Assembly: GCA_003640385.1 (NCBI GenBank)
Contig: RCAB01000066.1
Coordinates: forward strand, 82,001 to 146,000
Source of the DNA: Setaria digitata
Taxonomy: Eukaryota; Nematoda; Chromadorea; Rhabditida; Setariidae
Length of the DNA: 64,000 nucleotides
Reading direction: 5' to 3'
The notes under the pieces were generated by a model, which searched no databases, was not told the origin of the DNA, and worked only from the letters and a program-made list of their open reading frames with translations. The position numbers and the translations under genes are program-made. Below are positions 7,669 to 36,432 of the stretch, piece after piece (the stretch's first letter is position 1; each line of letters starts with the position of its first letter).

Positions 7669-9691
7669 ATGAATTCCAAAGCAGGACAACCTCTCCGCTT
7701 ACGTGGTGGATCAAACGTGGCCGATAAATTAATCAAAGCAATGGAGAGCACTCTTGTTAAGGTTTATTTTAGCATCTAAAAAAGGAAAGACGATACTCAG
7801 AAAGAAAATCATGTTAAGCAAATGTTTTAAAAAGGATATTTCCTGTAGGAAGAATTTATGTTTGGTGATGTTTGTGTAACTACTACTCGTGACCATATCC
7901 TTTCATCACAGTGTCATCATTCAGAAGCAGTGGATAACTACGAAGAACTATGTCAGGTTGTGGCGTTTTAATGTTTCTCTTTTTCTTTTTTGCTTAACAT
8001 TCATTGGTTAGAATGACTAAGAAAAAGAATATATATATATTTTAATGCAGGTTTGCGAATATACTCATATATTAAAACTACCACATCTACCGGNGTTAGA
8101 ATGACTAAGAAAAAGAATATATATATATATTTTTTTTAATGCAGGTTTGCGAATATACTCATATATTAAAACTACCACATCTACCGGATATGATATTTCC
8201 GAATAATTCGGTGCTTATTACTTATCCAGATGAACCGGAATTACGAATTAGCTTTAATGCTTTGGATGCTTTAAAATGGGTTGATGTTACGTCGTATCCC
8301 GATGTAGAGGCAAATTTTGAAATCTTTTCAAAAAATATAGTACTTTTCTTTATAAACCTCTATCATTTCCTTATATTAAATATTCACTGTAATGTACAGA
8401 GTATTTTCTCTTTATTTTACATAGCCAGAAATTAAATTATTCTATTTCATCTATCTCATTATCCTCTTGGTGGATGAATTAAGATTGCTAGTTTGAGTCA
8501 TTATAACTACAAAAAATGTCAGATTTTAAAATTAAACCTTCAATATGTAATATGTATCTTTAATTATTACTTTCCGTTAAAAGATTGGACCAAGCAAAAA
8601 ATGGCAGCGATCGAGAAGCGATGTAAATCGTTTGCAGCGTGGTAGTCATCCGTTTGATTGGACTTATACCAGTGATTACAAGGGGACTGTGGAAGGTTAC
8701 ACGGTATCATTTCTCATTCATTATTGTGATAATCTTTCTGTTTCTATCTAGATTGGTAAAGAAACGATATTCACCCTCATTATTATGATTACTTTTAGTG
8801 CAATTTTTTAGATGATCGATGGATTTTGATAAGTGAAAAAATTGATGATGAATTCGTTTTAGGTTGTGCCAACTAATGAAACGATCTCGGTAGAAAAACT
8901 GAAACGTCGTGATCCGATTAGTTTCTACTCACAGCTGATACTGTACGAAGATGAACTAGCTGACCATGGATGTTCTGAAGTAAGCGGAAAATTGGCTTTT
9001 TTCTTTTTGAGAAGTGAAGATCTAGTTAAATTAAGTATCCTGATTTTTTTTTTTTGAAAAAAAAAATAAACAGACCCATTTAGGAACTTACTCCTCCTTC
9101 TTTTTTTTTTTTTTTTTTTCAGTTTCCAAATAAATTCTTGTTTACTTCTTGAAGATGCATTTTCAGATGAGCATACGTTTGCGAGCCATGCCAACTTGTC
9201 TATTTCTTCTCTGTCGTTTCTATCTTCGTATCGATGATGTTCTGGTACGTATTTGTGACACAAGACTTTATAAAGAGTTAAATTCAGACACTTTTTTGAG
9301 ACAGTGGACACGTCGAGAACTAAAACTGGACAATTCATCATCTTCGGTAATTTTTTTTCTCATTCGATCCCTGGAAAAAGAAAATTGAGTTTTTTCTTTT
9401 GTTCATGAAGTTTTCCTATTCATTAAAAAAAAAAAAAAAAAAAAACAAAAACTTCAACCTTGTTGTTATGAAATAGCTGGGACCAGCGGAATGACACTAT
9501 TTCTTGGCAGATGTTTTCATGATTCCTCCGGTTCTTATGTTTTCTTTTTTCTATTTAGCTTTACTACTGCATTTTAATTTCCGAACATTTAGATACGAAA
9601 CAATATACTAGATCCGGATACTATTTACGACTGCCTTCCAATCGTGGAAGAAGAAATGACAAAACTTATTCCACTGCGATGTTGCACTTGA
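7669..9691 (+). CDS. TIPRL: TIP41-like protein (TIPRL), regulator of PP2A-family phosphatases
   Basis: TIP41/TIPRL binds PP2A-type catalytic subunits and acts in the cytosol in TOR-linked and stress signalling. Seven exons, all in phase 0, give 291 residues (human about 270): 7669-7761, 7849-7956, 8145-8303, 8584-8703, 8863-8979, 9167-9346, 9593-9691. Family landmarks are FDWTYTSDYKGT at 144-155, the block MSIRLRAMPTCLFLLCRFYL from residue 200, RICDTRLY at 227-234, and a C-terminal block around DCLPIVEEEMTKLIPL. The start chosen is the ATG at 7669. A TTACAG ends at 7635, and the 33 bases between it and the ATG stay open in frame, so a further upstream coding exon is possible. The third exon's acceptor and first bases are present twice because of an assembly join at 8094; only the second copy continues into the exon. 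Confidence 0.95.
8007..8187. repeat. Near-identical tandem copies flanking a single n (assembly join)
   Basis: Bases 8007-8093 and 8095-8187 are the same sequence apart from the length of a TA/T run, separated by one n at 8094. The duplicate covers the end of TIPRL intron 2 and the first bases of exon 3. This is what two overlapping contig ends look like when joined without merging. Confidence 0.9.
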
Positions 9692-34966: not shown

Positions 34967-36263
34967 ATAATTTGTTTGAATAAACCTCTTCAATGCTTGC
35001 TACTAATAGCGTCCTTTTTATTCCTGATAGGTTAATGAGTTCGAGTTCGCTAAAAGTAACTTTGTCCATCCTGAAAAGGATGGTGCAAAACAAAAGATTA
35101 AAAAAAGAAAGCAAAGCTAAATGCTGTCATTTCGGAATACCGGAAGAAAAAAAATCACGGAACTTTTAATCTCTGAGCAATTATAATCATTTCACTGCTT
35201 AAAATTACCAGTAATTATTTCCAAGGTTTTAATTTTCTTGCACGCATACTTCTCTTTTTCATAACAAGAAGTTTTAATATCGTACTTCTCTAGGAATTTG
35301 GTGAATTAATTTTAATGAAATCAAATTATAGGTGTTTTATTAATGATTGAAGGAATAGAATGGTATCGTTTTGTAAAAGAATTTTGATAATTTCATGATC
35401 TTTTTCTCATCTGACCGAGTCCGCGTGATAATGAATTAGTCAAAAAAAAAGTCAAAATATTTTATGGAACTGAAATGAAGATGATTTTTTTCTTTTCTTT
35501 TCCAGTTTAGTTAATTTTTTAGTGAAAGTTCGAAATTTCATTTCATTGATGTTCGAAAATTTACCATCACTGTACCTGCGCTTTTCTAAACGTTTGCTCT
35601 GCAAGAGACGAGTTAATTAATCATTTACAATTAAACGGTTAATATTTTAACAGTATCTCACTTTTATTGATTATTATTAGTTAACTTCATTGGTATGCAA
35701 TTTAAAAAAAAAAATACAATTTATGCTTAATGCATTCGTTAGAAATGAAGAACAAGAAATGAAAAACAATTATTCATTGTAAAATTTGTTAGTGAATTTT
35801 ATTCTGAAGGTATAAATCTCATTAATTACAACGAAATGCTCCCCACTAAAACGATAGGCATTTATACTTGCCCTATTTATAATAAATAATAATAATAATC
35901 AATTACTATCATTATTTTGTAACTGTTACTACTTATTATGTATTATTGCTATCTTATTTATTTATTTATTTATTTATTTATTGTTTTTTATATTATTATT
36001 TGTTATTATTATTAATATTATTAATTATTATTATTGTTAACATTACCATTTGCCATCATTGTTTATCATTATCACTTATTCATTATTCTTATCTTCAGTC
36101 TGTTGTTCATGATAATTTTTATCGCAATTACCATTATTATTATTATACACTATCACTATTTATTGTAACTTCTATTACTCTGCATCATCACTATATCGTG
36201 ATAAATCAATCCATTCGTTATCACCTGTTATATAACATCATTGTTCACTGCTTTACGAATTTA

Positions 36264-36432
36264 TTCATTACTGCTACAGTTATTTATTATTATTAGCCGC
36301 ATGAAGTTGAGCAATAACAGATCTGTGATGCTCTTAGATGTCCAGGGCTGCACGCGCGCTACACTGGAGGAATCAGCGTGCTGTAACCATTACCGAAAGG
36401 TTCATTACTGCTGCAGTTATTTATTATTATTA
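36264..36432. repeat. 32-bp direct repeat flanking the rRNA fragment
   Basis: Bases 36264-36295 (ttcattactgctacagttat, continuing in tta units) recur at 36401-36432 with one mismatch (a/g). The 105 bases between the two copies are the 18S rRNA-like segment, so the repeat looks like a duplicated insertion site. Confidence 0.8.
36296..36400 (+). pseudogene. 18S ribosomal RNA fragment inserted in intergenic DNA
   Basis: This segment carries highly conserved small-subunit rRNA wording from the 3' part of the molecule: gttgagcaataacagatctg, then tgatgctcttagatgtccag, then gctgcacgcgcgctacactg, then aatcagcgtg. These match the universal eukaryotic order ('TTGAGCAATAACAGGTCTGT' to 'GCGCTACACTG'), with substitutions of the kind expected in a nematode copy. 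It begins at gccgcatgaag and ends at accgaaagg. It is in sense orientation, far GC-richer than its surroundings, and only about 6% of a full 18S gene, so it cannot be functional rRNA. Confidence 0.9.

Follow-up and report, generated by a model that had tools for sequence, protein, structure and literature searches.

The locus at 36.3 kb of the window, by which we mean the whole stretch of 64,000 nucleotides analyzed in the present study (82001-146000 of its contig; assembly of 75.56 Mb in 976 contigs), raises the question of how a short piece of 18S rRNA sequence came to lie between direct repeats in the nuclear DNA of a nematode. The features of the locus and its surroundings are listed in Table 1. 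The Pfam search of the window covered 10 translated pieces, with a match in five of them, and the 18S fragment (hereafter L001) sits between the myosin and Nup35 matches.

Table 1. Features of the window and of the locus L001
Feature	Position	Strand	Basis or remark
Left-hand repeat of the duplicated target (TTCATTACTGCTACAGTTATTTATTATTATTA)	36264..36295	+	Repeat score 29; controls do not exceed 12
18S rDNA fragment, 108 bases	36293..36400	+	Corresponds to 586-693 in the local 18S reference (990 bases)
Right-hand repeat of the duplicated target, with one mismatch	36401..36432	+	Sequence comparison and repeat score
AT-rich trinucleotide field harboring the target	35860..36292	.	
Part of a myosin	24.5 kb		Pfam, below cut-off
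Part of a myosin	28.3 kb		Pfam
Nup35-type RRM	38.9 kb		Pfam; Nup35 also by PDB sequence
Cytochrome c	45.4 kb		Pfam
Bromodomain	55.7 kb		Pfam

Structure and rRNA identity of the insert

The first-pass annotation had described an 18S piece between 32-bp direct repeats with one mismatch, and this description was confirmed, with the correction that the homology to rRNA begins at 36293, not at 36296; the TTA that closes the left repeat also belongs to the 18S. The repeat abuts the fragment on both sides, and its two copies differ only at the 13th base (A/G). The repeat contains six G/C bases, half of it is TTA-like, and its informative part is TTCATTACTGCTACAG. When the insert and one repeat copy are removed, one 32-mer followed by a longer TTA run is left, which, by eye, makes a natural empty site. 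Parts of the surrounding degenerate AT trinucleotide field (35860-36295) have dozens of matches genome-wide, at 68-81%.

The gathering-level Rfam scan of the window gave no match. In a scan of eight loci at E values up to 0.01, L004, L006, L007, and L008 were above the cut-off of SSU_rRNA_eukarya, L002 reached 31.4 of the 50 bits required, and no match was obtained for L001, L003, or L005. Since L001 was directly unmatched in Rfam, its rRNA identity rests on alignment to relatives, and the region 36293-36401 (query 30-138) did align with other places in the same genome, including the SSU rRNA relatives called by Rfam, with an identity of up to 96%. This alignment indirectly points to an 18S origin of the piece. 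The rRNA sequence of these fragments is one that we take to be nematode-like.

Chance, assembly artifact, and age

To examine a chance origin of the repeat, stretches of 420 bases were simulated with a third-order Markov model of the AT field; none of the 2000 runs gave a pair of 32-mers with one mismatch or less. A scan of the window for such pairs at start-to-start distances of 92-331 bases found others only at approximately 8.0, 17.5, and 47.1-47.2 kb. The only two Ns of the window are at 8094 and 47294; duplicated sequence lies on either side of the former (8040-8187), and the latter adjoins further repeat pairs. The 18S part of L004 likewise has duplicated ends around a single N. The duplications around single Ns at 8094 and in L004 are artifacts of gap joining in the assembly that imitate direct repeats.

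The existence of these cases gives some weight to the explanation that L001 itself is a misjoined rDNA read fragment, the repeat of which represents an uncollapsed overlap. However, the stretch at 36.2-36.5 kb is free of Ns, the repeat copies differ by one base and the 18S piece carries two substitutions that are absent from L002 and L003, both as in real old DNA, and L013 and L026 share the anatomy of L001 (see below). We therefore regard an artifact as extremely improbable.

Between the L001 insert and the local reference, five of 108 bases differ. L002 and L003, the other young copies covering this stretch, agree with L001 at three of the five differences, leaving two private changes, one of which is also present in the old copy L006. 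Taken together with the single mismatch in the 32-base repeat, the insert suggests a change of approximately 1.5-2% per copy since insertion, and we propose that L001 is a dead scrap of rDNA that has since mutated neutrally.

Dispersed rDNA fragments in the genome

Searches of the assembly with its own and generic rDNA queries located 18S, ITS, 5.8S, or 28S sequence at no fewer than 63 distinct places, the window and L004 included, which supports the earlier claim that pieces of rRNA seed the nuclear genome of this worm. The 3' half of the 18S gave at least 51 matches in at least 40 distinct places (best 40 of 50 candidates), and the ITS1-5.8S-ITS2 query gave 17 matches in 13 places, of which 10 were kept after leaving out L004, a repeat find, and L052 and L053, which are tandem or of low complexity. 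Six places were found with a generic 18S 5' half and five with a generic 28S core, queries that are less sensitive, so that fragment densities are not comparable; L013 as a query added two further 18S places (C346 and C112). These counts are lower bounds that include some short matches (45-70 bases), and none of these queries revealed a complete rDNA array.

With borders placed from the Rfam scan, L011 and L040 cross from 18S into ITS1; L041 spans ITS1 into 28S, and L044 spans ITS2 into 28S. Since these fragments cross the borders of mature rRNAs, the source of the population is, as judged from the sequences, rDNA or unprocessed pre-rRNA, and mature rRNA was rejected as the sole source for the whole population. 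L001 lies wholly inside the 18S, and its own source may be either RNA or DNA. An apparent exact mature 3' end in L011 was discarded because the reference had been cut at that point; with the extended reference, the match enters ITS1.

No spacer fragment with an identity of 92% or more was present among those fetched, the best long one reaching 88% (L040), a value that depends on a local spacer reference which may itself be degenerate.

Target duplications at other fragments

Direct repeats at the ends of the insert were sought in 51 fragments, namely, 30 of the 40 places found with the 18S 3' half, 10 from the ITS query, and 11 from the 18S 5' half and 28S queries; L004, a piece of rDNA at a contig end, and nine other 18S places were omitted. 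Flanks were available on both sides in 50 of the 51, L066 lying at a contig end without a right flank. Long target duplications were found in three fragments: L001 (32 bp), L013 (30 bp; GCAGTGACATTTCTTCTAGCTAATATGTTA, one mismatch), and L026 (19 bp; TAAGTAATTAAAAAGTGTG, exact). Their repeat scores were 29, 27, and 19, respectively, against a next best of 10 and a maximum of 12 among 1500 cross-paired control flanks. In the remaining 48 fragments, no repeat score exceeded those of the controls. L018 and L028 entered this test with left ends that are not true ends; their left flanks resemble each other and presumably continue the 18S past the local reference.

The search for other rRNA fragments with flanking repeats, which the first-pass annotation had suggested, thus yielded two more, and its claim that rRNA or rDNA was captured with duplication of the target is well supported by them and by the agreement between the mutation loads of insert and repeat. 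Flank searches of L001, L013, and L026 listed relatives of the AT field, 18S fragments, and a small number of short matches well away from the inserts, with no paralogous copy spanning an insertion point among the matches listed (for L001, the best 40 of 396 candidates were scored). The L013 flank contains a 100-base repeat approximately 550 bases from the insert.

Scars were present in three of six 18S fragments with an identity of approximately 92% or more and in none of the 24 others (Fisher p 0.005), a cut that was set post hoc to include L013 (92.0%), the next values being 89.6 and 89.0%. This confinement to the least diverged 18S fragments fits an erosion of the repeats with age. L002, L003, and L010 are also among the six and have no duplication; being young yet scarless, they indicate that staggered-end capture is not the sole route, and a second insertion route without duplication probably exists.

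The background frequency of such repeats was estimated from a screen for complex direct repeats of 16-60 nt in 222,046 bases from 53 sources, which gave four pairs, L013 being one; the complexity threshold was 3.0, and the repeats of L001 (2.98) and L026 (2.56) are both below it. This bears on the explanation that the fragments are orphons, i.e. eroded rDNA units moved from the array, with the flanking repeat being an unrelated local tandem duplication. Many of the fragments are old (69-90% identity), L004, L011, L041, and L007 are long degenerate pieces of rDNA, and local slippage does occur, as in the 41-bp array that arose in L005 from its own 18S piece. Nevertheless, repeats of this kind are uncommon in the screen, and yet three abut 18S fragments at both ends, which makes this explanation very unlikely for the duplicated loci. 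Dispersed rDNA pseudogenes and orphons described, for example, in fungi (PMC5555474) are similar in that pieces of rDNA escape homogenization and degenerate, and the present case differs from that account in that three short pieces retain their own insertion scar.

Mechanism of insertion

At the junctions of L001, the overlaps are TTA (3 nt) on the 5' side and a single T (1 nt) on the 3' side; in L026, they are GTG and TAA (3 nt each); and in L013, the overlap is approximately 0 nt, with an unassigned CATT before the 18S part. Neither an A-tail nor a tail repeat was detected at the three sites, none of the three targets begins with an L1-type motif (TT/AAAA or TT/WAAAAWW), and L001 consists of a fragment of unrelated origin inside a duplicated target, without transposon ends. 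The small overlaps of 0-3 nt, the lack of a tail, and the lack of an L1-type motif favor break repair, and on balance we lean toward a staggered break that captured a fragment of rDNA origin and was filled in. The donor would have been supplied by the array, by circular or broken rDNA, or by a cDNA of pre-rRNA; it would have been joined into a chromosomal break with ends staggered by approximately 29-32 bases, with an overlap of 0-3 bases at the joints, and fill-in of both single-stranded ends would have left the insert flanked by two copies of the target. The anatomy of L001, the two comparable events at other loci, and the broad scatter of rDNA pieces are shown by the sequences; we infer the staggered break, the fill-in, and the DNA nature of the captured molecule. 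Against this mechanism, overhangs of 19-32 nt are long, and the lack of a young spacer fragment among those fetched would be compatible with rRNA as the origin of the young copies.

Insertions at double-strand breaks described for mitochondrial DNA (PMC2567098) and for nearby DNA (PMC2671141) similarly consist of an unrelated fragment with small overlaps and no tail. Compared with these accounts, the donor here is rDNA, and a long target duplication was kept in three cases.

A possible, less probable alternative is a tailless retropseudogene, for which the machinery of a non-LTR element would nick the target, prime internally on 18S rRNA or pre-rRNA, and duplicate the target. The three loci resemble the mammalian tailless retropseudogenes described in PMC5322556 in being short truncated copies of a structural RNA without an A-tail, in having duplications (32, 30, and 19 bp) within the range of 8-35 nt for which the human copies were screened, and in the small overlap at the 3' junction, which is 3 nt in L026; the human set includes two 5'-truncated 18S and ten 28S cases. 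Unlike the copies of that account, for which TT/AAAA and TT/WAAAAWW are the motifs given, as for L1, the three targets studied here have neither motif, the fragments are truncated at both ends, and spacer-containing fragments are present. The failure to find a reverse transcriptase domain is a further, weak difference. An RVT_1 profile search of the genome returned no matches from no candidates, and Exo_endo_phos returned one match, with stops, from three candidates, numbers to which introns or divergence could have added more; the Pkinase profile gave 156 matches in the same genome. Telomerase reverse transcriptase is reported across the nematodes, a Trichuris and Trichinella among them (PMC5405514), and since its domain was expected and yet unmatched, the RVT_1 result adds little. 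With no RVT_1 and one Exo_endo_phos match in 75.6 Mb, the genome is either very poor in retroelements or the domains were missed. Of the two routes named in the first-pass annotation, break repair is moderately favored over target-primed reverse transcription.

A further idea, which we consider rather doubtful, is that a process independent of retrotransposons continues to paste pieces of rDNA origin into breaks with a stagger of 19-32 bases in this genome, rDNA being a favored donor. If true, insertions with a duplicated target, the usual mark of retroposition, would arise without retroposition. With three scars in one small animal genome that carries rDNA scraps at 63 or more places, it becomes testable whether the target duplications around such scraps arise by break repair or by retroposition. 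Furthermore, a short 18S match in a genome of this type could represent a scrap, a caution relevant to species identification based on rDNA. Among the titles and openings of abstracts listed by a literature search, with most subscription papers outside its reach, none described duplication-flanked rDNA scraps in a nematode.

Shared boundaries and rearranged fragments

The starts of L001, L002, and L003 on the 18S fall within 6 bases, and the ends of L001 and L003 within 5 bases. In 20000 simulation runs with 29 fragments on the reference (L028 was dropped, both of its listed ends being those of L018), three or more starts lay within 6 nt in 32% of runs, a pair shared both ends in 16%, and both occurred together in 7%. 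By these frequencies, the shared boundaries were not shown to be special; a preferred donor piece of 105 bases is conceivable.

Several loci showed other repeats or unusual orders. At 867-1070 of L040 (the same place as L047), a 20-bp direct repeat with one mismatch encloses 164 bases that have no other match among the fetched loci; this could represent a comparable insertion of DNA unrelated to rRNA. An exact 19-bp direct repeat at 462-664 of L062 encloses 165 bases, also with no other match among the fetched loci. At the right junction of L025 (C211, 69.1 kb), an 8-base duplication, GTTTATTC, marks the limit of the 18S match, and rRNA-like sequence seems to continue beyond it.

In L046 (561-866, minus strand), a piece of ITS2 is directly followed by a piece of ITS1, the reverse of the unit order, an arrangement suggestive of captures that were joined together or of a donor that was tandem or circular. 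L040 jumps from ITS1 to ITS2 without 5.8S, thereby joining non-adjacent segments of rDNA.

L005 had been considered to share its start with L001, and this was rejected because the apparent start coincides with one border of a 41-bp tandem array. The 18S of L005 runs from 529 to approximately 706 on the reference, as 529-630, the array, and then 585 onward (end placed by eye). The array (1604-1936 of L005; C168, 295.2-295.5 kb), the unit of which is part of the captured 18S fragment, probably grew by slippage between two TTAG motifs and is a scrap of rRNA that has become a small satellite.
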